Under the pieces are notes generated by a model. That model searched no databases. It saw only the letters and a list, made by a program, of their open reading frames with translations, and was not told the origin of the DNA. Below are positions 31,005-62,726 of a stretch of 64,000 nt of DNA, piece by piece (the stretch's first letter is position 1; the number at the start of each line of letters is the position of its first letter). Location of the stretch: assembly GCF_017795885.1 (NCBI RefSeq), contig NZ_CP059297.1:2919001-2983000 (forward strand), read 5' to 3'. Source of the DNA: Brevundimonas sp. AJA228-03. Lineage in GTDB: Bacteria > Pseudomonadota > Alphaproteobacteria > Caulobacterales > Caulobacteraceae. Position numbers and translations under genes: made by a program.

Positions 31005-31676
31005 ATGCCGCACGACCGCCTCACCGTCCTGACCGCCCTCCAGGCCCAGGGCGTCTGCCCGGTCTTCTATCATGCGGACCCCGAGGTCGCGCTGAACGTC
31101 ATCCGCGCCTGCGCCCGGGGCGGCGCGCCGGTGATCGAGTTCACCAACCGGGGCGACTTCGCCGTCGATCTGTTCGCCGACATCGCCCGCGAGATCGCCC
31201 GCACCGACCCGGACATCATCCTCGGCATCGGTTCGGTGCTGGATGCGGGCACGGCCGCCCTGTACCTGAACCGCGCCGCCCGCTTCGTGGTCAGCCCGGC
31301 CCTCGTCCCCGAGGTCGCCCAGGTCTGCAACCGGCGCATGGTCGCCTATTTCCCCGGCTGCGGTTCGGTGCGCGACATCACCGAGGCCCACGCCCTGGGC
31401 TGCGACATCATCAAACTGTTCCCGGGGGCCTCGGTCGGCGGGCCGGACTTCGTCAAGGCGGTCATGGGCCCCATGCCCTGGACCAAGATCATGCCGACCG
31501 GCGGCGTCGATCCCGACGCGGCCTCGATCGCCCGATGGTTCGGCGCGGGCATCGTCGCCGCCGGCATGGGCTCGAAGCTGATCACCGATGCGGCCGTCAA
31601 GGCCGGCGACTGGGCGGGGATCGAGGCTTCGGTCCGGTCTGCCGTGGACGCGGTGAAGGCGTTCCGCCAGGCCTGA
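31005..31676 (+). CDS. KDPG/KHG aldolase-family protein
   Basis: A 223-residue class I aldolase of the 2-dehydro-3-deoxyphosphogluconate/4-hydroxy-2-oxoglutarate family. Conserved features are E45 in PVIEFTNR, the IGSVLDAGTA loop, FVVSPALVPEV and the Schiff-base lysine K137 in CDIIKLFPG, with the phosphate loop MPTGGVDP. It would split KDPG to pyruvate and glyceraldehyde 3-phosphate or act on a related keto acid. The neighbours are not Entner-Doudoroff genes, so the substrate is uncertain. A repeat follows it. Confidence 0.88.
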   Translation: MPHDRLTVLTALQAQGVCPVFYHADPEVALNVIRACARGGAPVIEFTNRGDFAVDLFADIAREIARTDPDIILGIGSVLDAGTAALYLNRAARFVVSPALVPEVAQVCNRRMVAYFPGCGSVRDITEAHALGCDIIKLFPGASVGGPDFVKAVMGPMPWTKIMPTGGVDPDAASIARWFGAGIVAAGMGSKLITDAAVKAGDWAGIEASVRSAVDAVKAFRQA

Positions 31677-31682
31677 CCGTCT

Positions 31683-31745
31683 CCTCCCTGTCGCGTAACG
31701 ATGGGGAGGGGACCACGACGTGGTGGAGGGGGTCTTGCCCCCCTA
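31683..31745. repeat. Dispersed repeat, copy 2
   Basis: Contains CTCCTCC...GATGGGGAGGGGACC and a GGTGGAGGGGGTCTTG end, matching the right half of the element at 24396-24572 and the element at 40664-40733. It fills most of the 159-bp gap between the aldolase and the convergent peptidase gene. Confidence 0.65.
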
Positions 31746-31835
31746 CCGACCTCACCCGCTTGATGACCCCTCCGTCTCCTCCGCTTCCCTGTTGCCGCCC
31801 TTTGCGGCGCAGACCCTGAATTACGAACGGGACGA

Positions 31836-34800
31836 TTACCGCTGCGGATACACCGGATATGGCGGCCGACGGGGCTGCTCGGGCGGTGCCGCCTGCAGGG
31901 CCTGCATGGCGATGGCCACCGCCGCGTCCAGTTGCGGATCGGCCCCGTCGGCCACGGCGCGGGGGTCCTGATCGACCATCACGTCCGGGGCCACGCCCGC
32001 GTTCTCGACCTCCCATTCGCCCTCCGGGTTGAAGAAGCCGACGTTGGGCGAGGTGACCTGGCCGCCGTCCATCAGGGGCGGCATGCCGCCGATCCCGACC
32101 AGACCGCCCCAGGTCCGCTTGCCGACCAGGGTGCCCAGCTGCTCGCGCTTGAACATCCAAGGCAGGGCGTCGCCGCCCGAGCCCGCGACCTCATTGGCGA
32201 TCATCACCTTGGGCCCCAGGATGGCGTGCGCGGGCGTCCGGTCGATGGAGCCGTAGCGCGGCGCCCACCAGCTCTGCAGCCCGCGCCCCAGCACCTCGAT
32301 GATGTAATCGGCCATCTGGCCGCCGCCGTTGAACCGCTCGTCGATGACAGCCCCTTCGCGGTCGCTCTGGGCGAAATAATAGCGGTTGAAGCTGGTGAAC
32401 CCGCCCTGCCCCGTGTCGGGCAGATGCACATAGGCCAGCCGCCCGCCCGACAGCCGGTCGACCCTCTGGCGGTTGCCCTCGATCCAGTCGAGGTAGCGCA
32501 GGCGCGCCTCGCTGGCGACCGGCTGCACCGTCACGTCGCGCCCGTTGGCCCCCGAGGCCGCGCCCAGTCTCAGCGTCACCATCCGCCCGGCCGTGCCCTC
32601 CAGCGCCGCCTGGATGTCCATGTCGGCGCTGACCGCCCGGTCGTCGACCGACAGCACGCAGTCGCCGACCCTTGCATCCACCCCCGGCTGGGCCAGCGGC
32701 CCCGTCACGTCGGGCGAGAAGGCCGTCGGGCCATAGATTCTGGTGATGCACCAGCGTCCGCCCTGGATCGCATAGTCGGCCCCCAGAAGGCCGCCCGACA
32801 CGCGCCGCGCCGACGGAATCGTCCCCCCGCCACCCCTCAGGTGGCCGACCGACATGCCGGTCAGGGCCTCGTGGAACACATAGTTCAGGTCGGTCCGCGA
32901 CAGGATGGCGTCGGCAAGGGGCTGCAGCCGCGCCTGGACGGCGGTCAGGTCCGAGCCGTGGAAGTTGGGGTCATAGAAATAGGCCCGCTGCATGCGGAAC
33001 AGCTCGCGATACATCTGGGCCCATTCGGCGCGCGGGTCGCTGCGGACGTCCAGCTGCTCGAACGACACCCCGCCCTCGCCCGCCTTCACCGGCGCATTGG
33101 CAGGCACCACGGCCCAGGACGGCGGGCGGGGCGGCGTGCCCGGGACCGCCTCTCCACCTGCGCGCGTCGAGATCAGCATCTTCTCCCCGTCGGCCGACAG
33201 CTCGAAGTTCACCACCCGCTGGGCCAGCACCTCGACCTTGCGGTCCTTCAGGGTGAACCGGTTCAGCGACATGTCGGCGGGCCCCGTGGCACCTGCCGGA
33301 CTGGTCTGTTCCATGAAGAAGATCACGCCGGTCTTGCCCGCCGTCAGGTCCGAATAGGCCCGGACCGGCACCGGCAGGGCGACCGTCCGCCGCTGGATCT
33401 GGTCGGGCGTCATCCCGCCGATGTCGATGGCCCTCGGCGGCGTGTTCGCCCCCGACATGGCGTCGCCACCGGTCGTCCGGTCGCCCGCCTCGCCCTCCTC
33501 CTCGTCGCTCTGCGGCGCGACCGGCGAGGCGACGCCTGCGTTCAGCGCGACGGCATAGATCGAATGCGTCGGCGTGAAGAGGTTGCTGGTCATGTCCAGC
33601 CCATAGGTCTGGCCGCCCGCATTGTTGCTGGCGACGTAATACAGGTAGTCGCCCCCGGCATCGAAGGCCGGGTCGCGCGCATCGCCCAGGTTCGAGGTCA
33701 GCGGCGTGGATGTCCCGTCGGCCACCGAATACAGGTTCAGCACCGTCAGCCGGTTGGCCCCGTTGCGCGAATAGACCAGCCAGTTCGAATTCGGCGACCA
33801 GGCCATGTCGGTGGACTGAACGGTGAAGCCCCCGTGCGCCTGGGCCGTGCCGACCTCGCCGAGCCGCCCCGTCGTGGTGTCCAGAACCCAGTTGCGCAGA
33901 TGGTTGTCCGAAAACGCGATCTTCCTCGAATCCGGCGACCAGACCGGATTGGCGTAATAGGTCGGCTCGGCCGCCAGAGGAAACTTCCGCACCGCGCCCT
34001 CGCCGTTCTGCGGCGCGACGTGCAGGGCATACAGGCCGGACTCGTCCGAGAAATAGGCCACACTCTGCCCGTCCGGGCTCCAGGCCGGGCTGCGCTCCAT
34101 CACGCCCGGCGTATTGGTCAGGTTGCGCACCGACCCGCGCGTGACCGGTGCCGTCAGGATCTCGCCCCGCGCCTCCACCGCCACCCGCGCGGCCGAGGGC
34201 GACAGGCTGACCGCCTGCACCTGGTCGGCGACATTGATGATGCGCGGCCGGGCGTCTGGCATGTCACCGGCGACGTCCACGCCCAGGGCCTGCGGCTCGC
34301 CGCCCGGCACCAGGGTCGACAGCGTGCCCAGCCGGTCGAAGATCAGGGTCCGGCCGTCCGTCGACAGCGACCGGATCGGCGACCCGTCGTTGGTCCACAC
34401 ACTGGCCACGGCCCGCGTCGCCGGATCGTAGCTGTAGATCGAGATCGGCCCGTCGCGGTCCGACAGGAAGTAGATCCTGCCGCCCATCCACACCGGCGAC
34501 AGGTCGTTGCTGCCCTGGCCTTGCGGCACCTCGACCGTCGCCAGCCCGTCCAGCGTCGTCACCTTGATGGTCGACGCCCTCCCGCCGCGATAGTTGCCCC
34601 AGGCCGTATAGTTGCCGAACTCGAACCCGAAAGCCGGGGCGAAGGGGCTGTAGGCGATGGCCCGCCCGTCCGGCGACATCTGGCCGGTGTGGGCATAGGG
34701 CAGAGGCATGACATCCGGCGCGCCGCCCTCGGCCGACACGGAGAACAGCTGGGTGTAGCGGCTGGCCGCCGACCGGTTCGAGCGGAACAGGACCCGGCTG

Positions 34801-35174
34801 CCGTCCGGCGACCATCCCACCGCTGCGTCATTGCCGGGGTGCCAGGTGATCCGCTTCGGCTGCCCGCCGCTGGCCGGCACGGTATAGACGTCGATGTTGC
34901 CGTCATATTCGCCGGTGAAGGCGATGCTGCGTCCGTCGGGCGAGAACATCGGCGCGCTCTCGATCCCGACCCCGATCGTCAGGCGCTGCGCCCGCCCGCC
35001 GCCGCGCGCCACGGTCCACAGGTCCCCGCCATAGACGAAGGCCACCTGATCGGCGCTGATCGCGGGCTGCTGCAGGATCTGCGACTGGGCCGACGCCTCG
35101 CCCGCCAGCCCTCCCGAGACCAGTGCGCTCGATGCGAGCCACAACGCCATCCGGCGACCCAGACCCAGAACCAT
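31836..35174 (-). CDS. Tricorn-like S41 family peptidase
   Basis: A 1112-residue exported peptidase. A signal peptide (MVLGLGRRMALWLASSALVS) leads into beta-propeller repeats with FSPDGRSIAFT, GWSPDGSRVLFRS and AWSPDGQSVAYFSDE in about residues 30-620. A linker, a helical C1 domain and a PDZ-like domain (GVDARVGDCVLSVDDRAV) follow. The S41 core has a catalytic His candidate in GMSVGHLRGG, the substrate-binding RFNGGGQMADY and the nucleophile Ser in NEVAGSGGDALP. Such enzymes degrade peptides that enter the propeller tunnel. The ATG at 35174 was chosen for the signal peptide; the frame is open further upstream. Confidence 0.93.
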   Translation of the reverse strand: MVLGLGRRMALWLASSALVSGGLAGEASAQSQILQQPAISADQVAFVYGGDLWTVARGGGRAQRLTIGVGIESAPMFSPDGRSIAFTGEYDGNIDVYTVPASGGQPKRITWHPGNDAAVGWSPDGSRVLFRSNRSAASRYTQLFSVSAEGGAPDVMPLPYAHTGQMSPDGRAIAYSPFAPAFGFEFGNYTAWGNYRGGRASTIKVTTLDGLATVEVPQGQGSNDLSPVWMGGRIYFLSDRDGPISIYSYDPATRAVASVWTNDGSPIRSLSTDGRTLIFDRLGTLSTLVPGGEPQALGVDVAGDMPDARPRIINVADQVQAVSLSPSAARVAVEARGEILTAPVTRGSVRNLTNTPGVMERSPAWSPDGQSVAYFSDESGLYALHVAPQNGEGAVRKFPLAAEPTYYANPVWSPDSRKIAFSDNHLRNWVLDTTTGRLGEVGTAQAHGGFTVQSTDMAWSPNSNWLVYSRNGANRLTVLNLYSVADGTSTPLTSNLGDARDPAFDAGGDYLYYVASNNAGGQTYGLDMTSNLFTPTHSIYAVALNAGVASPVAPQSDEEEGEAGDRTTGGDAMSGANTPPRAIDIGGMTPDQIQRRTVALPVPVRAYSDLTAGKTGVIFFMEQTSPAGATGPADMSLNRFTLKDRKVEVLAQRVVNFELSADGEKMLISTRAGGEAVPGTPPRPPSWAVVPANAPVKAGEGGVSFEQLDVRSDPRAEWAQMYRELFRMQRAYFYDPNFHGSDLTAVQARLQPLADAILSRTDLNYVFHEALTGMSVGHLRGGGGTIPSARRVSGGLLGADYAIQGGRWCITRIYGPTAFSPDVTGPLAQPGVDARVGDCVLSVDDRAVSADMDIQAALEGTAGRMVTLRLGAASGANGRDVTVQPVASEARLRYLDWIEGNRQRVDRLSGGRLAYVHLPDTGQGGFTSFNRYYFAQSDREGAVIDERFNGGGQMADYIIEVLGRGLQSWWAPRYGSIDRTPAHAILGPKVMIANEVAGSGGDALPWMFKREQLGTLVGKRTWGGLVGIGGMPPLMDGGQVTSPNVGFFNPEGEWEVENAGVAPDVMVDQDPRAVADGADPQLDAAVAIAMQALQAAPPEQPRRPPYPVYPQR

Positions 35175-35253
35175 CTTCAACCCCCATGGAACAGGCAGGG
35201 ATACTCCGTCAGCGGATCGACGCTGGCAAGGCCGCGCGCCAGGGGCATCGGGC

Positions 35254-35499
35254 TCAGGCTTCGAACATCTCGGGCAGACGCCCGGCCCGGAAGAGGATGG
35301 TGGGGCTCTCGTCGTAATCGCCCATCTCGGTATCGGCCGAGACCGAAAACGCCACCACGCCCAGCCGGAGGGGGGCCAGCCGCTCGGCCTTGCGCTGTGC
35401 CTCCGCGGCATCCTTGCATCCGACCTGAGGCTCCGCCTTCAGCCCGCTGCCGCGCCCCTGAACATAGGCCTGCACGATAAACACGGTCTCGGTCGCCAT
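35254..35499 (-). CDS. Small uncharacterised protein
   Basis: An 81-residue soluble protein starting MATETVFIVQAYVQGRG, with one Cys and alternating beta-like segments (LRLGVVAFSVSADT) ending FRAGRLPEMFEA. I do not recognise a named family, though similar short proteins occur widely in alphaproteobacteria. It lies upstream of the tricorn-like gene on the same strand, 79 bp away. Codon use matches its neighbours, and the frame is the only long one here, which supports it as real. Confidence 0.72.
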   Translation of the reverse strand: MATETVFIVQAYVQGRGSGLKAEPQVGCKDAAEAQRKAERLAPLRLGVVAFSVSADTEMGDYDESPTILFRAGRLPEMFEA

Positions 35500-35553
35500 C
35501 CGCGCGACAGGGGCCTGTTCGGACCTGGCGTCAAGGGCGCAGCGAATGCAAAC

Positions 35554-36165
35554 CTACGAACGCGCCGCGAAGAACATCAGATAGACCAGTCGTCCGGTTT
35601 CGGGCGTCGTGCCGAACCCGGGCCGGCTGTTGTGGAACAGCCAGGGCGAGAACAGGGCCAGCCGGTTGAACCGCATGGGAAGGCTCATCGTCCTTTCCCA
35701 GGCACTGGGCTTCAGGGTGTCGCGGTTCACGACATCTTCGATCAGGGCGTTGATGTCGCCATAGCCAGCCCTGACGAGACCATCGTCCGTCATCGGAACA
35801 CGGTCCAGCCCCGTGCGCCTGTGGCGATAGAAGTCCGTTCCGCCCCGCGCGTGCTCCGGCGGGCTCAGATACAGGATGCCGGAAAAATAGGCCGGATCGA
35901 TATGAACGCCGCTGGCCCCGCGGTCGCTGGCCAATGCGATCCGGCAGTGGCCATGCAGGGTGCCCGGCGCGGCCTGCACCGGCACTCCGATCAGGCGCGA
36001 CACGGTCTCGTCCAGGCCCGGGATCTCGATCGCCCGGTCCGAGGTGACCCCCGAATAGTTGCCGTGCTGCGCAGCGCGGTCATATCCCAGGGCCAGCGCA
36101 CGCTGACGCAGGTCCTGGGGATTGGCCAGGAAGTCGTCGACCAGGACGACCGAGGGCAGGCTCAC
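35554..36165 (-). CDS. DUF6445-like protein, 2-oxoglutarate-oxygenase-like
   Basis: A 203-residue protein. It begins with VVLVDDFLANPQDLRQRAL, and its core has GVHIDPAYFSGILYLSPPEHA followed by GGTDFYRHRRTG and a C-terminal RLALFSPWLFHNSRPGFG. The HxD...H arrangement and the double-stranded beta-helix feel resemble the DUF6445 family, which in Caulobacterales often lies near TonB receptors and tryptophan-halogenase-like genes. Neither is adjacent here. Iron and 2-oxoglutarate use are inference. It is the gene just downstream of the autotransporter, 34 bp away. Confidence 0.72.
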   Translation of the reverse strand: MSLPSVVLVDDFLANPQDLRQRALALGYDRAAQHGNYSGVTSDRAIEIPGLDETVSRLIGVPVQAAPGTLHGHCRIALASDRGASGVHIDPAYFSGILYLSPPEHARGGTDFYRHRRTGLDRVPMTDDGLVRAGYGDINALIEDVVNRDTLKPSAWERTMSLPMRFNRLALFSPWLFHNSRPGFGTTPETGRLVYLMFFAARS

Positions 36166-36199
36166 GCCCGCCCCCGCTCGCGACCTCGCACGATCGACG

Positions 36200-39100
36200 T
36201 CAGAAGCGCCAGCTGAGCGCTGCGCGGTAGGTCTGGTAGTTGATATCGTCCCGCTCGGTCGTCGTGTCGGCCGAGATGTCCAGCTTCATGTCGCCCCGGC
36301 TGACCGACAGTCCGCCGCCCAGCTCGAACCAGCTGTTCTCGCCGGTCGCCCGCGGGACTCTCAGCCGGTTGCCCACGCCCGCAAAGCCCACCACGAACGG
36401 GGCGTCGCCATCGCTGAACTCATGCACCAGACGGACGGAGCTGTGCGGCGCGATGGCATAGCCGTGGGTGTTGAACGGCAGCGCGAAGTCGATGCCCACA
36501 CGGCCCTGCAAGCTGTTGTAGCGCCCGCTGCCGATATCCAGAGCGGCCGAGCCCCCGGTTTCGCGCACGTCATCGAAATCCGTGGTCGTGGCACGCAGGC
36601 TGGCCTGGGGCGTCATGAAGACGCCGCCATTTTCGTACTCCTTGCTGATCGAGGCCTCGCCACCGAAGGAGAAGACGTCTTCCGAGCTGGTGAGGGTCTG
36701 CGTCGTCGTGCCCAGCGTCACCAGGCGCTCGGTGTCCAGGCTGGTCGTGCCGATGTTGCCGCCGACCGACAGAATAAAGCCGTCGCCGACTTCACGCGTG
36801 GCGTAGATCGCGCCGCGGAAGGTGTCGGACCCGGTCTTCTGCAGGGGCGTGGCCGAGCCGTCGCTGCTCGCATAGGCCAGGTTGGCACCGAGCATCCAGC
36901 CCGTTTCCGGATAGAGTTCCACGCCCGCCACGCCGAACCAGCCGTCCAGCGTATCGCGCTTGTCCCCACCGAACGTCGGGCGGGAATCGCCTTCGAAATA
37001 ACCGGCATGGATATAGGCACCGACGTCATCGGGCAGGGTCATGCGCCGGACAGGGCCCGTCGCGGATTGCAGCTGGGTCATCAGCGACTGACGGTCGAAC
37101 TCGCCATTCAGCGACATGGCTGCGGGATTGCCGCCGATGGTCAGGGTGCCGGCCAGGTCGTGGCGGGCGCCCTTGTGCATCCGGTCGGACGTGAAGTCCG
37201 CCAGCACCTCATTGACGAGCACGGCCTGGGACCGCTTGGCCAGGGCCACGTGCGGTGCCAGCTGGTTCAGGGTCGAACGGATGCCGGCCAGGCTCTGGAT
37301 GTCCGTCTGATCGTAGATCCCGGCGAGGGCCGCATAGTTGGCCGCCCGGTTGGCATCCAGCAGTCGACCGGTGAACAGTTCCCCCCGGCGCACGCCGCTC
37401 AGGGTGGCATAGTCCAGAGCGTCGATGCGGACGCCCACGGACGAGCTGGTATAGCTGACGGTGCCGTAAAGGATCGGGGTCAGCTGGGTGTTCAGGGTGG
37501 TGAACTGGCCCGTCACGCCGCCCGCGGCCGAAAGCACGGTATAGCTCGCGCCATAGCTCGGCCGACCGATGGCGTTCAGCGTCAGGGTCCCGCCCAGCAG
37601 CGCCGTGCCCGCCTGACCCGACCCTGCCGCGACGCTCAGGCGATCGGCGCCGGTCGTCGCGATATCGATCACCAGCCGGCTGCCCGAGGACAGCACCAGA
37701 TTGCCGTCGATCCCCAGGGCGCCCACGCCGCCGAGCGTACCGGGGGTGATGGTGCCCATCACATTGGTCACGAACGGTGCCGCGATCCGGCCATTGCCCG
37801 ACAGCAGACCGCTCAGGATCATATAGTCCCCGCGCGAGGTCAGGTTACCGTCGACCGACAGCGTGCCGGTCATCTGGTTGACGTCCATCAGACTGGTCAG
37901 CGACCCGCCCGTGGCGATGTTCAGACGGCTGTTGGCGCCGGTGATCCGGAACCGGTCGACCGTGGCGGTCGAGCTCAGCGTGGTGGTGCCCTGGGCCGAC
38001 AGATTGACGTCGAAATACCGGCCGATCGAACCCGTCAGGCGGTCGGGATCCACGTTGTTGGGCGTGAAGCCTGTCGCGCCCGGCAGGCCGTTGGCCAGGG
38101 TCGCGGCCGGCAGGGCGGCCAGACCGATGGTCCCCCCGGCCTGGGCCGTCGCCTCGCCCGAAACCTCGACCTGGGCCTCGGCATAGCCACTGACCGGCTC
38201 GATGATCGCCTCGCCGGGCGCATGGGTGGCGACACCCACGTCGGACCCGCCCCCGGTCCCGATCGGCCGGGTGTCGACCCGATTGACGCCGGTCGCGACG
38301 TTCAGGCACTCGCTGATACCGCCGGACTGGAAGCAAATCTCGCCGAACTGGCCCGAGGTGCCGTTCTTCTGCTGGCCGGGGTCGTTGGGCAGGCCGTTGA
38401 TGATCTGGCCGGTGGGGCCGATGATCTGGTAGTTCGGATCCAGGGTGGTGACCCAGTTGGTCGGATCGGTCCAGGCCCGGTCACCCGCGACATTGCTGAC
38501 ATAGCGGTACGGATTGTTCGCCGCGATCCAGTCCCAGTACAGATACAGCGGCTGATAGAAGCTGACCGTGCCATATCCGTTCGACGACTGGGCACCGAAG
38601 AACCGCGTATAGCCGCCCGACAGCACGCCGATGGCCAGGTTCAGGTTCTGGGCGTTCTGCAGGATCAGCGGCCCGCCGGAATCCCCCCCGGCCGTCGTGC
38701 CCTCGGTCGTGCCTCGGGCATTGTCGCGAAAGGCGTTGAAATCGAAGCGGCTGGCCCCGGCCGTGCCGCGCAGGGGATCGTCGAAGTCGATGAAATAGAG
38801 GTTCTGGGTCAGGCCGTTGGGCGCACCGCCGAACAGGAAGCCTTCGAACGTCTGGAGCGAGGTCAGGGCGCCGACGATGTTGTCGGCGATCCGGCGTCGG
38901 AAATCGATCGGGGCCGTGCCGCTGGTTCCCGTGCCGTTGCCGCCATATCCGGCGATGCCGACGTTATAGCCCGTGCCCGCGGCCGTGATCGTCGTCGGGG
39001 CCAGCGGCGAGAACAGCATGGCCCAGGTCGGAATGCCGGCGGCCGGCGTGTCCAGCGTCGCGGTCGCGACATCGCCGTACAGGAAGCCTCGCGCCGCCGG

Positions 39101-39652
39101 CTCCAGCGACAGCGGATTGTAGCGGACCTGATCGACGTTGAAGAAGGACGACCCGATGTTGGTCCGGTACTGGTTGGGACCGGCCAGCAGCCATTGTATC
39201 AGCTCATCCGGTCGGCCCGCAGCCTCGGCGCGGAGGTTGGCCTCGAAGCCGAACCCGATCCGTGTTCCGCCCGCGCCATAGGCGATGGCCGACCGGGTGT
39301 TCACGCAGTGGGCGGCGAACAGCACCGTCCGCGGGTTGATCAGCGAGCCCGTGCACAGGCCCACCGAACCGCCGCCGTTATCGATGATCATCTGGCCGAT
39401 GCCGGTGATGTTGACCGGGTCCCGCGCCGTCGTCGGCGTGTTCGGGTTGGCGATCAGGATCTGCGGTTCCGGCGCGACCGGCACGACCTGGCCGGCCGAG
39501 TGGGGCACGGGCGCGACCGGCGCGACATAGCCGTTATGCGGCTCGGGCGAGGTGGGCGCGACATAGCCGGACTGGGCTGCCGCCGCCATCGGGACAAGCA
39601 GGATGGCGCTGGACAGCATCAGGCTGTGGCGCAGGTTCGCATTGGTCGTCAT
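36200..39652 (-). CDS. Autotransporter with trypsin-like serine protease passenger
   Basis: A 1150-residue surface protein. A signal peptide and a short repeat region (GYVAPTSPEPHN, GYVAPVAPVPH) lead to an S1-type protease domain with candidate triad H115 (LFAAHCVN), D194 (YGDVATATLD) and S325 (AGGDSGGPLI). A beta-helical stalk follows (about 450-800) with repeated LSSGSRLVIDIATT-like strands and SYGASYTVLSAAGGVTGQF. The C-terminal 270 residues form an autotransporter beta-barrel and the last residue is Phe (ALSWRF), as the BAM complex prefers. The ATG at 39652 is preferred over a GTG at 39670. It is probably secreted and may cleave itself or host/environmental proteins. Confidence 0.92.
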   Translation of the reverse strand: MTTNANLRHSLMLSSAILLVPMAAAAQSGYVAPTSPEPHNGYVAPVAPVPHSAGQVVPVAPEPQILIANPNTPTTARDPVNITGIGQMIIDNGGGSVGLCTGSLINPRTVLFAAHCVNTRSAIAYGAGGTRIGFGFEANLRAEAAGRPDELIQWLLAGPNQYRTNIGSSFFNVDQVRYNPLSLEPAARGFLYGDVATATLDTPAAGIPTWAMLFSPLAPTTITAAGTGYNVGIAGYGGNGTGTSGTAPIDFRRRIADNIVGALTSLQTFEGFLFGGAPNGLTQNLYFIDFDDPLRGTAGASRFDFNAFRDNARGTTEGTTAGGDSGGPLILQNAQNLNLAIGVLSGGYTRFFGAQSSNGYGTVSFYQPLYLYWDWIAANNPYRYVSNVAGDRAWTDPTNWVTTLDPNYQIIGPTGQIINGLPNDPGQQKNGTSGQFGEICFQSGGISECLNVATGVNRVDTRPIGTGGGSDVGVATHAPGEAIIEPVSGYAEAQVEVSGEATAQAGGTIGLAALPAATLANGLPGATGFTPNNVDPDRLTGSIGRYFDVNLSAQGTTTLSSTATVDRFRITGANSRLNIATGGSLTSLMDVNQMTGTLSVDGNLTSRGDYMILSGLLSGNGRIAAPFVTNVMGTITPGTLGGVGALGIDGNLVLSSGSRLVIDIATTGADRLSVAAGSGQAGTALLGGTLTLNAIGRPSYGASYTVLSAAGGVTGQFTTLNTQLTPILYGTVSYTSSSVGVRIDALDYATLSGVRRGELFTGRLLDANRAANYAALAGIYDQTDIQSLAGIRSTLNQLAPHVALAKRSQAVLVNEVLADFTSDRMHKGARHDLAGTLTIGGNPAAMSLNGEFDRQSLMTQLQSATGPVRRMTLPDDVGAYIHAGYFEGDSRPTFGGDKRDTLDGWFGVAGVELYPETGWMLGANLAYASSDGSATPLQKTGSDTFRGAIYATREVGDGFILSVGGNIGTTSLDTERLVTLGTTTQTLTSSEDVFSFGGEASISKEYENGGVFMTPQASLRATTTDFDDVRETGGSAALDIGSGRYNSLQGRVGIDFALPFNTHGYAIAPHSSVRLVHEFSDGDAPFVVGFAGVGNRLRVPRATGENSWFELGGGLSVSRGDMKLDISADTTTERDDINYQTYRAALSWRF

Positions 39653-39799
39653 GAAGGCCCCCGGAAACACAATTCAACCTTTGTGACGGACGACGGGGGC
39701 GTTTCGCAACCCTTAACATCGGGCACGGGACAATTCCGCCATCGGATGGTGATTCGCGGCCACGCCTCGCGCCACGACCGTCCGTTCACAGCACAATCG

Positions 39800-40534
39800 T
39801 CACCCCTCATCACGCTCCGGCACCTCGCCCCCCAGCTCCCGGACCAGGGCTTCCAGACGTCGCATCCGCCGCAGGTTGTCCATGCGCCACGCGGAGACCG
39901 CCGCGCGCTTGGCACCCTCGATCCGGGCAAAGCGCTTGCGCAAGGGATAGGTCGGCGACTCCGTGTCCGGGCCATCCGGTTCCACGCAGAACCGCGCCCG
40001 GGCCGCATCGTTCTCGGTCACCAGAATGTCGAACAGCAGCTGCAGATCGATGGTCTCGATCGTGATCTTCGCCGCCTCCGCGCTCTTCGCCTCCCGCTCC
40101 GCCAGCCGCGCATAGGTCTCGGCCAGCCCGGCCAGAGCCTTCGCCTCGTTCCACAGCCGCCCCTTCATCGCCCGCCCGCTGGCCAGGGTCGCCGCCCGGG
40201 CCAGTTCGGCCGGGTCCGTCGCCGAGGCATCGTCGACCGGCGCGGGCTGGAACAGCGCCTTCAGCGCCCGCGACCCCACCGGCTGCATCGACCGGACCGA
40301 GGCCTCCTCCTCCTCGACCATCCGCGCATGGGCCCGCGCCCGCGCATCGCCCATCCCCTTCTTGGTCCAGCCGTCGCGGCAGGCGTAACGATAGACCGAC
40401 GAGGGCGCGACCTTCCACTTGGCCCCGATGTCCTTCGCCGTCGCCCCGTTCCTGTATTCCTCGGCGATGATCGCCCAGGTCTCGGGCTTCAGCCGGAAAT
40501 GGGTCGCGGGCGCTTCGACATAGGCTCGGGTCAT
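39800..40534 (-). CDS. HTH protein resembling a terminase small subunit
   Basis: A 244-residue protein starting MTRAYVEAPATHFRLKP. The segment IIAEEYRNGATAKDIGAKWK then APSSVYRYACRDGWTKK is a helix-turn-helix like that of phage terminase small subunits and Nu1-like proteins, followed by basic and coiled helical regions (AEREAKSAEAAKITIETIDL). No terminase large subunit or other packaging genes are next to it, so it may be a remnant of a prophage or gene transfer agent cluster, or a free-standing regulator. It abuts the nuclease island. Confidence 0.7.
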   Translation of the reverse strand: MTRAYVEAPATHFRLKPETWAIIAEEYRNGATAKDIGAKWKVAPSSVYRYACRDGWTKKGMGDARARAHARMVEEEEASVRSMQPVGSRALKALFQPAPVDDASATDPAELARAATLASGRAMKGRLWNEAKALAGLAETYARLAEREAKSAEAAKITIETIDLQLLFDILVTENDAARARFCVEPDGPDTESPTYPLRKRFARIEGAKRAAVSAWRMDNLRRMRRLEALVRELGGEVPERDEG

Positions 40535-40663
40535 GCCCCCATTATTGCCGTGCCAGAAGACAAGGCGCGTTCGACGCCGCGATTTCATCGGCCACCCCTG
40601 AAACGAAACGCCAATTCGCCGCCAGCGCGGACAATCCGGTCCCCGGGAGCGGACATCCCGCCC

Positions 40664-40733
40664 CTCTCCTCCCCCGTCATGGGGCAGGGGGACCGCGAAG
40701 CGGTGGAGGGGTTCTTGACGCGCGCCAGAACGA
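40664..40733. repeat. Dispersed repeat, copy 3
   Basis: Contains CTCCTCCCCCGTCATGGGG, then GGGGGACCGCGAAGCGGTGG and AGGGGTTCTTG. The sequence matches the reverse complement of the right half at 24396-24572. It marks the left edge of the HNH-TcmP island. Confidence 0.75.
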
Positions 40734-40768: not shown

Positions 40769-41674
40769 ATGGCCAAGGGCGTGTTCACGACAAAGCTTAG
40801 TCCGAGCTACGACGACCTCCCCGAGGAACGATACCACTTTGGCCGGGACTATCTCGCCCGCGTCGAGCGAACGCTTGGCGACACGATCGTGTATTACGAG
40901 CCCAGACGAAGCTCGGAGCATCTGAGCAGCCGTGGGGGGCGACAGTCCTACTTCGCGGTAGCGAGGCCCTATAAAATCACGGAAGACCCGAAGAAGGCTG
41001 ATCACTTCTATTGCCACGTTTCGGACTATCTGGATTTCGAACAGGCAGTCTCATTTCGTAACGGCAGCACATATTTCGAGAACGCTCTTCGGCGCGACGA
41101 CGGCGGTACGAACAGGGGAGCCTTTGGCCATGCCGTTCGCATCGTCCCTGAAGACGAGTTCGAGGCAATTTTGGCGGCGGGTTACAGCACCTCCCGCGTC
41201 GACTTCGCCATCCAACCAGACCTGGCCACACCGCTCTCAAGTTTCGCTGAAGACATGGCCCAGTTTGAGCGGCCGATGGTGGAGCTGACCATCACAAAGC
41301 CGTTCAGGGACGTTGCCTTTCGCCGTTCGGTCCGCGCGGCCTATGACAATCGCTGCGCCGTCACCGGCCTCCGATTGATCAACGGCGGCGGCCGACCAGA
41401 GGTCCAAGCCGCGCATATCCAAGCGGTAGAGGATCGTGGCCCGGACTCGGTCCGCAATGGCCTTGCTCTATCGGGTACCATTCATTGGCTGTTCGATCGC
41501 GGGCTGATCGCCGTGGCTGACGACATGCGCATCTTGAAGGCCAAGGGGCATGTGCCCGACGAAGTCGAACGTCTGATCAACGCCAGCGGCTACATCAACC
41601 TTCCGCCCGATCCGAACCATCGACCCCATCCGGCGTTCCTGAGCTTCCACCGGGAAAATCGGTTCAAGGGATAG
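40769..41674 (+). CDS. HNH endonuclease
   Basis: A 301-residue protein. The C-terminal HNH_2-type domain (about 195-270) shows YDNRCAVTGLRL, EVQAAHIQAVEDRGPDSV, NGLALSGTIHWLFDRGLI, i.e. the conserved Cys/AH/N/H pattern for metal binding and cleavage. The N-terminal half, with GGRQSYFAVARPYKI, DHFYCHVSDYLDFEQAV and YFENALRRDDGG, may form a PUA/EVE-like reader fold; that is inference from the look of the sequence. HNH proteins with a reader half often act as modification-dependent restriction enzymes. Base composition is lower in GC than the neighbours. It heads a short accessory island. Confidence 0.88.
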   Translation: MAKGVFTTKLSPSYDDLPEERYHFGRDYLARVERTLGDTIVYYEPRRSSEHLSSRGGRQSYFAVARPYKITEDPKKADHFYCHVSDYLDFEQAVSFRNGSTYFENALRRDDGGTNRGAFGHAVRIVPEDEFEAILAAGYSTSRVDFAIQPDLATPLSSFAEDMAQFERPMVELTITKPFRDVAFRRSVRAAYDNRCAVTGLRLINGGGRPEVQAAHIQAVEDRGPDSVRNGLALSGTIHWLFDRGLIAVADDMRILKAKGHVPDEVERLINASGYINLPPDPNHRPHPAFLSFHRENRFKG

Positions 41675-41688
41675 ACATAGCGGCCACG

Positions 41689-41901
41689 TTAGGCTCGACC
41701 CGGTCCATAGGGGTTCCGCTCGAACCGGATCAGGTCATGCTTCTCAGCAAACCACGCAACGAAGGCTGAGGGCTTGTCGCCTTCCTGCCAGTAGCGATTG
41801 AGCTCGTCGTCGCTGAGGCCAGCGTCCGAGGTGTCAATGCACCAGTCTCGCAGCATCAGGCGATCGACTTCGGCAATCCACGCGACCCGCTCTATTGTCA
41901 T
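41689..41901 (-). CDS. Small acidic protein, convergent to the HNH gene
   Basis: A 70-residue protein starting MTIERVAWIAEVDRLMLRDW, rich in Asp, Glu and Trp, ending FERNPYGPGRA. AGGA lies 7 nt before the ATG at 41901, which decides against an extension of the frame to 42090 (that would cross the upstream DUF5131 start). It is divergent from the DUF5131 gene and ends 14 bp from the HNH stop. Similar short proteins exist on mobile elements. An antitoxin- or inhibitor-like role is speculation. Confidence 0.65.
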   Translation of the reverse strand: MTIERVAWIAEVDRLMLRDWCIDTSDAGLSDDELNRYWQEGDKPSAFVAWFAEKHDLIRFERNPYGPGRA

Positions 41902-42010
41902 CTCTGTTCCTTGCCATTCCAGCCGCCAAATGAGAACATAGCACGAACATTTCGTGGTGGCATGGTTAATGCATGGGTCGGCTCTGCGCTCGAAAGTGAT
42001 AGGATCGACC

Positions 42011-42766
42011 ATGGCCGACACCACGATTGAATGGACAGACTCTACCTGGAATCCTGTCGCCGGCTGCACGGTGATCACGCCGGGATGCACGAACTGCTAT
42101 GCAATGCGCATGGCGGCGCGGCTCGATGCGATGGGCGTTCCAAAGTACGAGGGACTGACGCGAAAGAGTGGCGATCGCTATGTCTGGACGGGAAAAGTGC
42201 GACTTGACGAAGCCTCGCTCGACGCCCCGCTCAAGTGGCGCAAGCCGCGAAAGATTTTCGTCAACTCGATGTCGGACCTTTTTCACGCGGACGTTCCTGC
42301 AGAATTCATAGCGCGCGTGTGGAAGGTGATGGAACAGACACCTCAGCACACATATCAAATTCTAACCAAGCGACCCGAGCGCATGCGTGAGGTGCTCGTG
42401 GCACTCGACTTGCCGGTACTGCCGCACGTGTGGCTGGGTGCCAGCGTTGAGGACTCAGCGGTTCTCAGTCGGCTTGATGATCTAAGAGCGACGCCAGCAA
42501 TCATCCGTTTCGTGTCGTTCGAACCCCTAATAGGGTCGGTGGCGAATGCCGACCTAACAGACATTCATTGGGCGATCATTGGGGGCGAGTCCGGTCCGCG
42601 AGCGCGCGTGATGGATCCGGAATGGGTCGAGGAAATCCAGCTTTGCTGTCGAAATGCCGGGACGGCGTTCTTCTTCAAGCAGTGGGGAGGCCGGAATAAG
42701 AAAGCAACTGGCCGATCGCTGCACGGCCGGGAGTGGAACGAACTACCGGAATCTGCAACGTTGTAA
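42011..42766 (+). CDS. DUF5131 (phage Gp37/Gp68-like) three-Cys-motif protein
   Basis: A 251-residue protein starting MADTTIEWTDSTWNPVAGC. The cluster GCTVITPGCTNCYAMRMAAR gives a CX7CX2C pattern like that of radical-SAM-related phage Gp37/Gp68 proteins. Later conserved stretches are IFVNSMSDLFHADVP, QILTKRPERMREV, PHVWLGASVED and WAIIGGESGPRARVM, then FFFKQWGG. AGGA precedes the ATG by 6 nt. The family is almost always next to a TcmP gene, as here. To my knowledge its reaction has not been shown. Confidence 0.9.
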   Translation: MADTTIEWTDSTWNPVAGCTVITPGCTNCYAMRMAARLDAMGVPKYEGLTRKSGDRYVWTGKVRLDEASLDAPLKWRKPRKIFVNSMSDLFHADVPAEFIARVWKVMEQTPQHTYQILTKRPERMREVLVALDLPVLPHVWLGASVEDSAVLSRLDDLRATPAIIRFVSFEPLIGSVANADLTDIHWAIIGGESGPRARVMDPEWVEEIQLCCRNAGTAFFFKQWGGRNKKATGRSLHGREWNELPESATL

Positions 42767-42789
42767 ACGGACAACTGAAAGGCGATTCG

Positions 42790-43944
42790 TTGGCGACCGA
42801 TATGCAGGCCTACGCTGGTCGTGAGCAGACACAAGCAAAGCACTTCATCCTTCGAAAGTACCTGCAAGCGCTGGCCTTCAAGGTGCTGCGGCATTGGGAT
42901 GTTACGTATGTGGACGGCTTTTCGGGGCCTTGGAAAGCCGAGCGAGAGGACTACGGTGATACGTCCTTCATGATCGCCATCAACGTCCTAAAAGACGCTC
43001 AGAATCTGATCAAGGAACAAACTGGACTCCGGCGACGTATCCGCTGCTTCTTCTCTGAAAACGACCCTGAGGCATACGCCCAGCTCGAAGCGGCTGTTAG
43101 GCCTCATCATCGACCCGCGGATGGCTTTGAGATTCAGACTTTTTGCGGAAAGTTCGAAGACGCGGTTCCTACCATTCAATCGTTTATCGGTATCTCGTTT
43201 CCACTGATCTTTATCGATCCAACCGGCTGGACTGGATATCCATTCTCGAAAATCTCGCCGCTGTTTCAGCGTGAGAAATGCGAAGTGCTCATCAACTTTA
43301 TGTACGCATTCGTCAGCCGCTTCCTAAACCATCCGGACGAAAAGATCATTGGATCGCTCGACCCAATCCTAGGAGGTTCAGGCTGGCAAACTCGCCTAGA
43401 GGCCGGCATGGAACCCGCCTTGGCTGTGGAAAGTCTATTCCGCTCAACCCTGCGACAAGCCGGCTCCTTCGACTACGTTGTCTCCACGCGGATCGACAAA
43501 AGCACGGAAGATAGGCCTCACTTTTTCTTGGCCTACGGGACGAAAGATCGTGCTGGTCTAAAAGCGTTTCGGGACATCGAGTACGCTGCCCTGCGCGAGC
43601 ACGCGAGAAATCGGTCTACCGCCAAAGAACGAAAGCGTGAAGACAAAACGGGCAACGTCGACTTGTTCGCCGCTTTCGAAGCCGATGTTCAGGAAGCCTC
43701 GATTGAATCAGTCGTTGCGCAACAAAAGCTATTGGCGCGCTCGCATCTGACCAACCTCCTACGAGCGGGACCCACGCGGTTTTCCCAAGTTACAGACGTC
43801 TTGCTGCAAGCGTTCATGCTTAGGGAAACGAACGTGAAAGATATCTGCGTCGAATTGAGTCGATCGAACACGATCGCAAACACTTGGGGTACCGGAGGTC
43901 GGAAGCCTCAAGGTGATTCAATCATTCAGTTGATAGTCAATTAG
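42790..43944 (+). CDS. tcmP: Three-Cys-motif partner protein TcmP
   Basis: A 384-residue protein that I recognise as TcmP, the obligate neighbour of the three-Cys DUF5131 protein. The sequence shows methyltransferase-like features: VTYVDGFSGPW (motif I-like DxFxGxG loop), CFFSENDPEAY (acidic motif II) and PLIFIDPTGWTGYPF (a D-P-x catalytic-loop-like motif IV). These suggest a class I SAM-dependent methyltransferase core. I chose TTG at 42790 because AAAGG sits 8 nt upstream; ATG 42802 or GTG 42733 are alternatives. The C-terminal 120 residues (STAKERKREDKTG onward) are a separate helical region. Base composition is clearly lower in GC than the flanks. Confidence 0.88.
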   Translation: MATDMQAYAGREQTQAKHFILRKYLQALAFKVLRHWDVTYVDGFSGPWKAEREDYGDTSFMIAINVLKDAQNLIKEQTGLRRRIRCFFSENDPEAYAQLEAAVRPHHRPADGFEIQTFCGKFEDAVPTIQSFIGISFPLIFIDPTGWTGYPFSKISPLFQREKCEVLINFMYAFVSRFLNHPDEKIIGSLDPILGGSGWQTRLEAGMEPALAVESLFRSTLRQAGSFDYVVSTRIDKSTEDRPHFFLAYGTKDRAGLKAFRDIEYAALREHARNRSTAKERKREDKTGNVDLFAAFEADVQEASIESVVAQQKLLARSHLTNLLRAGPTRFSQVTDVLLQAFMLRETNVKDICVELSRSNTIANTWGTGGRKPQGDSIIQLIVN

Positions 43945-43991
43945 CGTTTCGACCTTACTGGCGCATCCGCGTCTTGCTGGGCTTCTGATCC

Positions 43992-44219
43992 TCACGCCGC
44001 GAGGATGACCGCGTGGTCGACCTCCCGCGCCGCATAGGCCAGGCAGGCCGAGATGTCCTCGGCCTCCAGATCGGGGTGGTGTTCGAGGATGGAGGCCGGG
44101 GTTTCCCCGGCAGCCAGCATGCCCAGGACATCGCTGACACGAATCCGCATGCCCCGGATGCATGGACGCCCCCCACAGGTGTCGGGACGGATCGTGATGC
44201 GGGCCAGAAGATCGCTCAT
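43992..44219 (-). CDS. DUF433-family antitoxin, orphan copy
   Basis: A 75-residue protein: ARITIRPDTCGGRPCIRGMR is the DUF433 signature, followed by VSDVLGMLAAGETPASILEH and the typical ISACLAYAARE end. DUF433 proteins are VapB-like antitoxins usually followed by a DUF5615 PIN-like toxin. No toxin follows on this strand: only 47 bp remain before the convergent TcmP stop. The intact homologous pair is at 62499-63055 in this window. So this copy looks like a solitary antitoxin at the edge of the island. Confidence 0.88.
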   Translation of the reverse strand: MSDLLARITIRPDTCGGRPCIRGMRIRVSDVLGMLAAGETPASILEHHPDLEAEDISACLAYAAREVDHAVILAA

Positions 44220-44426: not shown

Positions 44427-46235
44427 TCAATCCTCATCCATCTTCAGCGCGGCGATGAAGGCCTCCTGCGGGATCTCCACCTTGCCGAACTGGCGCATCC
44501 GCTTCTTGCCGGCCTTCTGCTTCTCCAGCAGCTTCTTCTTGCGCGTCGCGTCGCCGCCATAGCATTTCGACGTCACGTCCTTCCTCAGGGCGCGGACGGT
44601 CTCGCGGGCGATGATCTTGCCGCCGATGGCGGCCTGGATCGGGATGACGAACATGTGGGGCGGGATCAGGTCCTTCATCTTCTCGACCATGCCCCGGCCG
44701 CGCGTCTCGGCCCGGCCGCGGTGGACCAGCATGGACAGGGCATCGACCGGCTCGGCATTGACCAGAATGCTCATCTTGACCAGATCGCCGACCTTGTAGT
44801 CCGTCAGCTCGTAATCGAAGCTGGCATAGCCCTTGGAGATGGACTTCAGCCGGTCGTAGAAGTCGAAGACGACCTCGTTCAGCGGCAGCTCATAGACCAC
44901 CAGCGCCCGGGTGCCGACGTAGGACAGCTCGATCTGGCTGCCGCGCCGGTCCTGACACAGTTTGATGACCCCGCCGAGGTATTCGTCGGGGGTCAGGATG
45001 GTGGCCTTGATCCAGGGTTCCGAGATGGTCTCGATCTGCATCACATCGGGCAGGTCGGCGGGGTTGTGCAGGTCCAGCGTCGTGCCGTCCCTCAGGCCGA
45101 TCTTGTAGACCACCGACGGCGCCGTCGCGATCAGGTCCAGGTTGAACTCGCGGCTGAGCCGCTCCTGGATGATCTCCAGATGCAGCAGCCCCAGGAAGCC
45201 GCAGCGGAAGCCGAAGCCGAGGGCGGCGCTGGATTCCATCTCATAGGTGAAGGAGGCATCGTTCAGCCGCAGGCGGCCGATGGCGGCGCGCAGGTCCTCG
45301 AAATCGGCGGCGTCGACCGGGAACAGGCCGCAGAAGACCACCGACTGGACGTCCTTGAACCCCTTCAGCGGCTCGGCCGTGGGCTTCTTTTCGTCGGTGA
45401 TGGTGTCGCCGACGGCGGCGTGGGCGACCTCCTTGATCTGGGCGGTGATGAAGCCGACCTCGCCGGGGCCGAGGCTTTCGACCGGAGTGTTCTTGGGCAG
45501 GAAGACGCCGACCCGGTCGACCAGATGGGTCGAGCCGTTCTGCATCATCTTGACCCGCATCCCGGCCTTCAGCTGGCCGTCGAACACGCGCACCAGGACC
45601 ACGACGCCCAGATAGGGGTCGTACCAGGCGTCGACCAGCAGGGCCTTCAGCGGGGCGTCGGGGTCGCCCTTCGGGGCCGGCAGGCGGGTGACGATGGCCT
45701 CCAGCACCTCCTCGATGCCGATGCCGGACTTGGCGCTGCACAGGACGGCGTCGCTGGCATCGATGCCGATGACGTCCTCGATCTGCTGGCGCACCCGCTC
45801 GGGCTCGGCGGCGGGCAGGTCGATCTTGTTCAGGACCGGCACGATCTCGTGATTGTTGTCGATGGCCTGATAGACATTGGCCAGGGTCTGGGCCTCGACG
45901 CCCTGACTGGCGTCCACGACCAGCAGCGAGCCCTCACAGGCGGCCAGCGAGCGCGAGACCTCATAGGCGAAGTCCACATGCCCCGGCGTGTCCATCAGGT
46001 TCAGGACGTAGTCGAGCCCGTCCCGGGCCGTATAGTTCAGCCGCACCGTCTGCGCCTTGATCGTGATCCCCCGCTCCTTCTCGATATCCATCGAATCCAG
46101 AACCTGGGCCGACATCTCCCGCGCCGTCAGGCCTCCGGTAAACTGGATCAGCCGGTCGGACAGGGTCGATTTCCCATGGTCAATGTGGGCGACCACGGAG
46201 AAGTTGCGGATTCGGTCGATGGGGGGCGTCGTCAT
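44427..46235 (-). CDS. lepA: Elongation factor 4 (LepA)
   Basis: A 602-residue ribosomal GTPase. The P-loop AHIDHGKST is at about residues 16-24, effector [11 protein letters not shown] and DTPGHVDF follow, and NKIDLPAA is the guanine-specificity motif. The C-terminal domain unique to LepA ends [20 protein letters not shown]. LepA acts on translocation and assists initiation and ribosome biogenesis. Start ATG at 46235; divergent from the RND efflux adaptor. It stands 207 bp from the DUF433 gene. Confidence 0.97.
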
Positions 46236-62498: not shown

Positions 62499-62726
62499 AT
62501 GATCGACTACCGTCAATACATTACGATCGAGGCCGGTAAGCGAGGCGGGCGCCCGTGTGTCCGAGGCATGCGTATCTCTGTCGAAGATGTATTGGGGTGG
62601 CTCGCCGAAGGGATGAGTCACTCTGAGATCATGAAAGACTTCCCCGAACTGACCGAAGACGACATTCGCGCTGTGCTCGCTTACGCGGCCGACCGACATC
62701 GCCGGACCACTTTCGCGGCCGCGTGA
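62499..62726 (+). CDS. DUF433-family antitoxin
   Basis: A 75-residue protein with the DUF433 signature TIEAGKRGGRPCVRGMRISV followed by LGWLAEGMSHSEIMKDFPEL and the end AVLAYAADRH. It is the antitoxin-like half of a VapBC-type pair. The toxin gene starts inside its stop codon (GTGA overlap), so the two are translated together. It resembles the solitary DUF433 copy at 43992-44219. Confidence 0.92.
   Translation: MIDYRQYITIEAGKRGGRPCVRGMRISVEDVLGWLAEGMSHSEIMKDFPELTEDDIRAVLAYAADRHRRTTFAAA

Follow-up and report, generated by a model that had tools for sequence, protein, structure and literature searches.

Whether the GC-poor segment at positions 40769-43944 of the Brevundimonas sp. AJA228-03 contig stretch analysed here (64,000 nucleotides of NZ_CP059297.1, hereafter the window) encodes one defence module or several neighbouring units is the question raised by this locus. 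The first-pass annotation had described an HNH endonuclease gene, a DUF5131 gene, and a methyltransferase-like TcmP gene as a candidate three-gene island whose products would act together. Family scans, gene calling, and sliding-window guanine plus cytosine (GC) content agreed that the three genes are real and visibly lower in GC (HNH 0.597, DUF5131 0.581, and TcmP 0.528; window 0.674), and none of the 244 sliding 3,176-base windows was as low as the segment (0.565; minimum 0.568, in a sliding window overlapping the segment). The genes are not contiguous, since small70, a gene on the opposite strand overlooked by the earlier reading, separates HNH and DUF5131. Comparative analysis indicated that the HNH gene belongs with small70 rather than with DUF5131-TcmP, and that the segment is very probably a patchwork of separately exchanged units in a variable site downstream of the core gene lepA, in which HNH and DUF5131-TcmP came to lie side by side through accretion and are not partners.

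The proposed link between the HNH gene and DUF5131-TcmP did not recur elsewhere. A survey of 299 genomes of the order identified HNH matches in 62 (full length in 37) and TcmP above the cut-off in 28. Neither DUF5131 nor TcmP was present in any of 111 other stretches carrying relatives of the HNH gene (4-17 kb, median 15.8 kb), a set of 31 order loci and 80 loci from GTDB genomes in which L098 and L197, from the same contig, are both counted and the contig of L198 is as long as that of L100; the full-length or near-full-length matches of genomes G118, G107, G140, G193, and G281 lie outside this set. Seven of 29 other TcmP genomes carry HNH_2, the one HNH family that this survey covered; it lies on the TcmP contig in two, about 112 kb (G238) and about 451 kb (G158) away, and the genes are on separate contigs in the remaining five, so no distance is obtainable there. 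A count of HNH genes within two genes of TcmP had been suggested as a check, and no HNH family ranked among the 25 most frequent of the 137 Pfam families in the 104 genes (60 amino acids or longer) within two genes of TcmP or DUF5131, a ranking whose unlisted rarer families could hide single HNH proteins; the TcmP genomes G026, with a short contig, and G219, with a partial match, do not figure in the neighbourhood count. In genome G330, the same DUF5131-TcmP insert as in the window adjoins a different, NOV_C-type nuclease. On this evidence a single HNH plus DUF5131-TcmP module was rejected, and the link is not supported at the sampling used.

The companion that does recur beside the nuclease is small70. 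Among 39 loci (each counted once and including the window; L197, on the contig of L098, is likewise counted once), 38 have small70 next to a restriction-enzyme-like gene, in one of them (L270) at a distance of 183 bases, and these genes are of several unrelated kinds; the set is biased by the loci that were found via HNH. The neighbours comprise 13 EVE-HNH genes, three genes each of a second and a third HNH_2 family, 13 NOV_C genes, four MrcB_N-NOV_C genes, and single GmrSD_N (L266) and weakly related HNH (L270) genes. The NOV_C-only proteins were provisionally counted as Type IV-like, L239 matches PADLOC PDC-S36, and a literature search for NO VEIN domains in phage defence returned nothing. 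Within lepA-flank loci, a restriction-enzyme-like neighbour was found for 6/6 small70 genes vs 13/351 other genes. The 34 small70-nuclease pairs examined for orientation included 20 convergent, nine with the nuclease first, five with small70 first, and none divergent, and 32 of the 34 gaps measured between -38 and +16 bases.

The small70 profile matched 24 of 131 same-genus genomes and 20 of 299 order genomes (two of them weakly); across 289 genomes of the class it recovered nothing beyond the window and two weak matches. The weak matches in G100, G185, G389, and G394 were not used. The gene is also present in four HNH stretches that come from other orders (L127, L128, L146, and L153), and searches of plasmids and phages gave no match at E 0.001. 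A nuclease neighbour was present in all 23 same-genus genomes examined out of the 24, a count that includes the window as well as G336 and G343, with open small70 frames of 61 and 77 codons, and has G684 outside it. Outside the genus, 11 of 12 good profile matches had a nuclease-kind neighbour, with L270 and G159 counting as one each. The G159 copy (G159:C18:21549-21734), which stands outside the 39 loci, has two in-frame stops and lies beside an EVE-HNH gene. In L239, L256, L258, and L260, a protein of one cluster, which in L239 is Bro-N (PF02498), adjoins small70 on the side opposite the nuclease.

Relatives of small70 (91 proteins) are unnamed or hypothetical, and precomputed PF06755 annotations occur on five of them. 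Alignment A6 took in 39 of the 91. At E up to 1, PF06755 (CbtA_toxin) matched 16 of 48 family members, the five pre-annotated proteins included, with a best E of 3.1e-4. In a single hhalign comparison (probability 92.5), the small70 profile aligned to residues 15-80 of CbtA (YeeV), the type IV toxin of Escherichia coli, and it scored CbtA at 20.6 bits vs 9.7 for the best of 2,000 CbtA shuffles. PMC5624674 describes CbtA contacts with FtsZ through F65 and with MreB through R15; F65 stands opposite W50 of small70, a position that is aromatic (W, Y, or F) in 33 of 48 members, and R15 stands opposite a gap. In contrast to CbtA, of about 124 residues, small70 has 70 and lacks residues 81-124, the C-terminal third, and it stands beside nuclease genes. 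The antitoxin CbeA (PF06154) was found in 0/24 genomes with small70, and the search of the PDB with small70 gave only a chance-level match (E 0.056). Because of the partial alignment, the gap at R15, and the missing CbeA, the protein is named CbtA-like and not CbtA, a resemblance that the profile comparisons weakly suggest. In the literature covered no paper was found linking CbtA-like proteins to Type IV enzymes; PMC5512222 mentions CbtA in the context of polyvalent proteins, and PMC7641849 mentions EVE-HNH with no CbtA-like partner in the text covered.

The nuclease itself was modelled with an EVE/PUA base-reader fold in its N-terminal half, in line with the first-pass suggestion of a base reader, and the whole protein is predicted to be an EVE-like reader joined to HNH of the kind of the Type IV enzyme VcaM4I (PDB 6yex). 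VcaM4I, with an N-terminal EVE-like domain and a C-terminal HNH in about 300 residues, was the best Foldseek match of the model (E 2.6e-6). Residues H216, N230, and H239 are invariant across 79 sequences and align by sequence with VcaM4I H224, N241, and D250, so that the third HNH residue differs (H vs D); further differences are the 13-19% identity of the structural alignments, the low template modelling score (0.28) and high root-mean-square deviation over the whole chain, and the companion gene small70. The base pocket of VcaM4I involves P24, W82, and Y130. From its predicted fold and active-site residues, the protein likely cuts DNA that contains modified bases. A phosphorothioated-DNA restriction enzyme (NF045808) was also considered, given a likeness in the C-terminal HNH part (E 2.9e-21), and was rejected at 75.9 bits vs a cut-off of 180 with a match confined to residues 172-300. 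Ten of the 111 HNH stretches (L098, L101-L107, L191, and L197, with L098 and L197 on one contig) have EVE-HNH no more than 300 bases from lepA; where known, they belong to a different family of the order (f4; Glycocaulis and Oceanicaulis records), which makes the lepA linkage either older than the genus of the window or recurrent.

The region downstream of lepA is highly variable in 38 same-genus loci, with some genome groups sharing an arrangement, and alignments with two of them dissected the window into parts. In the closest relative, G345 (locus L207), lepA is followed by DUF433, DUF5615 directly after it, two further partial lepA 3' copies (210 nt at 90%, L207 2138-2347; 64 nt at 91%, L207 3103-3166), an SseB-like gene, and small70, beyond which lie an HNH_2 gene from a different sequence family, an 81-residue gene, and the left-hand gene of the window. 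The repeated lepA 3' copies suggest repeated insertion at the lepA end. In G330 (locus L252), the order is lepA, TcmP, DUF5131, small70, and the NOV_C protein, with the TcmP and lepA ends 24 bases apart. Homology between the window and L252 spans 41726-43953 (78.8%); it breaks off within the terminal part of small70, and past that point the two loci have different nucleases. Homology with L207 covers 39814-40711, 41711-41868, and onward from 43987. The window is accordingly a mosaic of an insert common to G330, a DUF433 unit common to G345, and a nuclease found in neither, and the alignments place the nuclease exchange interval from the end of small70 (41711-41726) to about 40711-40720. The dispersed repeat and the orphan gene noted earlier at the two borders were both recovered: the repeat has 16 matching places in its own genome, itself counted, and DUF433 stands there without its DUF5615 partner. 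The lepA-end copy beside DUF433, which the earlier reading also overlooked, resembles the lepA 3' ends of L252 and L207 (80% over 50 columns) and forms direct repeat D3 with 44489-44532 (82% over 44 nt). A tRNA search of the window for a tRNA-bounded island found none.

The DUF5131-TcmP pair, already listed as a candidate in PADLOC, is a separate candidate defence pair, formed by a radical S-adenosylmethionine (SAM)-like enzyme and an RlmJ-like methyltransferase that together probably modify a nucleic acid. Its co-inheritance held up, the two genes adjoining in 27 of 29 loci. DUF5131 scored 321.7 bits against PF07505 (cut-off 28.9) and 76 bits (E 2.9e-21) against TIGR04471, radical SAM mobile pair protein A, which is below the cut-off of 355; TcmP scored 143.8 bits against TIGR04474 (cut-off 53). 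Both components match the PADLOC phage-defence candidates PDC-M30/PDC-M41 and are adjacent, although DUF5131 is best matched by M41B (E 4.1e-105) and TcmP by M30A, such that no single type was assigned; a demonstration of PDC-M30/M41 function was not found in the literature covered. The canonical radical SAM motif is CX3CX2C. Rather than the CX7CX2C reported at first, DUF5131 has CX6CX2C in the window and in all 25 proteins whose N-terminus was reached, three of the 28 remaining unread.

The TcmP model (pLDDT, the predicted local distance difference test score, 87.8) gave the class I methyltransferase fold that had been expected from its motifs. Foldseek places catechol-type O-methyltransferases first and VIA-align places RlmJ first; RlmJ was preferred because in VIA-align it covers about 208 residues, compared with about 172 covered by the catechol type, and leads the next other fold by 2.7 Z units; the assignment is a match of predicted fold only. 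RlmJ (DUF519) is the 23S rRNA A2030 N6-methyltransferase. TcmP differs from it in having no Pfam match at E up to 0.1 (PF04378/RsmJ included), extra C-terminal helices, and a DPTGW motif where RlmJ has DPPY. Sequence searches of the PDB returned only a chance-level match for TcmP relatives (E 0.045) and none for DUF5131 relatives at E 0.1. In L068 and L092, a single DUF5131 gene is flanked by two TcmP genes of different subfamilies, which suggests that a radical-SAM-like enzyme may work with more than one methyltransferase-like partner, here two. Three of the 104 TcmP neighbours match ThiC, which is also a radical SAM enzyme, apparently in L085, L087, and L094, where TcmP is of the short type (about 290 residues).

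For the nuclease unit, EVE-HNH would act as VcaM4I does, taking up a flipped-out modified base in its EVE pocket and cutting the DNA, and would restrict phages or plasmids with modified DNA, with small70 staying in place while unrelated nuclease genes replace one another beside it. That small70 acts on one and the same host target whichever nuclease stands beside it, perhaps holding back division during the cutting of foreign DNA, is a tentative proposal, and the fuller reading of a stripped-down CbtA-like companion that couples modification-dependent restriction to a pause in host division or shape, in a two-gene immune unit with an interchangeable nuclease, is more speculative still. A number of observations weigh against the overall explanation: the window small70 itself has no Pfam match; the HNH model falls below pLDDT 50 in the catalytic stretch 205-229; L269 is the one locus of 39 in which small70 adjoins adenylosuccinate synthetase; three of 24 same-genus copies (G336, G343, and G684) have a stop within the profile match; 98 of the 111 EVE-HNH stretches lack small70; and L214, L219, L226, and L233 hold such nucleases near lepA without it. 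Same-genus loci also share the site by descent, so that 23/23 does not represent 23 independent events. Lastly, 25 of 39 small70 stretches contain lepA, some of the other 14 ending at a nearby contig end, and small70 could therefore be a neutral passenger or a recombination anchor whose conserved sequence marks the edge of nuclease swaps. This last possibility, doubtful on balance, is favoured by exchange breakpoints within the end of small70 and by the common lepA site, whereas pairs with equally tight spacing occur in stretches without lepA, including the four loci outside the order. A regulatory or braking role, in which small70 would bind or repress the nuclease next to it and thereby limit self-damage, is also rather unlikely. 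The tight packing without divergent pairs fits such a role, and VcaM4I becomes a toxic nuclease when its EVE domain and linker are removed (PMC7897488), so restraint matters; however, most relatives of the nuclease occur without small70, and one 70-residue protein would have to recognise unrelated HNH_2, NOV_C, MrcB_N, and GmrSD_N partners. As the nuclease partners differ in architecture, host-target action by small70 was considered slightly likelier than inhibition of one nuclease, with the brake and passenger readings nearly as likely as host-directed action.

The remaining units would function apart from this pair. DUF5131-TcmP would modify a nucleic acid independently of the nuclease unit, and the DUF433 gene would be what is left of a DUF433-DUF5615 pair that had entered at the 3' end of lepA. 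It is very improbable that DUF5131-TcmP marks self nucleic acid for an HNH enzyme that cuts unmarked DNA, as in a restriction-modification-like module: adjacency in this window only, the methyltransferase fold of TcmP, and the reader fold beside HNH fit that arrangement, but the 111 stretches, the 29 TcmP genomes (five of the seven with HNH_2 having it on a different contig), the intervening opposite-strand small70, and the other nuclease beside the same G330 insert do not. A DNA or RNA modification pair of phages or mobile elements with no part in defence is a less favoured but credible possibility for DUF5131-TcmP, given 161 phage records with a DUF5131 match, nine with a direct TcmP match, 25 plasmid records with TcmP, and the pair itself in two plasmid records inspected. 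The interval between integrase and immunity repressor is a frequent place for prophage defence genes. Against a purely mobile role, PADLOC lists the families as defence candidates and Gordonia phage Fairfaxidum carries DUF5131 and a TcmP-like gene (hhalign probability 96.9) in exactly that interval; the gene adjoining DUF5131 in a Synechococcus phage compared only weakly with TcmP (probability 56.5).

Table 1. Genes and repeats of the GC-poor segment and its borders, in window coordinates.
Feature	Position	Strand	Remarks
Predicted EVE-like reader + HNH endonuclease gene	40769..41674	+	PF13391 E 2.4e-11; putative Type IV-like restriction enzyme
small70, 70-codon, tentatively CbtA-like companion gene	41689..41901	-	convergent with HNH; 14 bases between gene ends
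DUF5131, radical-SAM-like, CX6CX2C	42011..42766	+	PF07505 E 4e-96; longer open frame from 41954
TcmP, predicted RlmJ-like class I methyltransferase fold, C-terminal helices	42802..43944	+	TIGR04474 E 8.8e-42; alternative start 42733
Partial second lepA 3' end copy	about 43949..44000	.	adjoins DUF433 gene; direct repeat D3
DUF433 gene without DUF5615 partner	43992..44219	-	PF04255 E 2.8e-26
lepA, core gene bordering variable site	44427..46235	-	
HTH-type (helix-turn-helix) gene, left border	39800..40588	-	HTH_23/HTH_7 matches weak, below cut-off
Dispersed repeat, left edge of swapped nuclease gene	40667..40711	.	L207 homology stops at 40711

L207 encodes a protein 93% identical to that of the left HTH-type gene, and lepA flanks of other same-genus genomes encode similar ones. 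To the left of this gene, L207 continues directly with window position 31668 and below, so that about 31669-39813, including a gene of 1150 residues (36200-39652), is either missing from L207 or relocated in it; the part at window 35254-35535 is found in L207 across the HTH gene, on its opposite side. A second DUF433-like gene is present at 62499-62726 (+), with phmmer E 3.3e-17 against the first.

Dropping the unsupported link between HNH and TcmP keeps the DUF5131-TcmP question clean. Should small70 prove to work together with Type IV-like nucleases, enzyme families otherwise studied singly would have an accessory in common, and restriction would be tied to a host-directed function resembling that of a toxin. 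The lepA flank offers a natural set of same-site nuclease swaps within one genus and so opens this question to a direct test.

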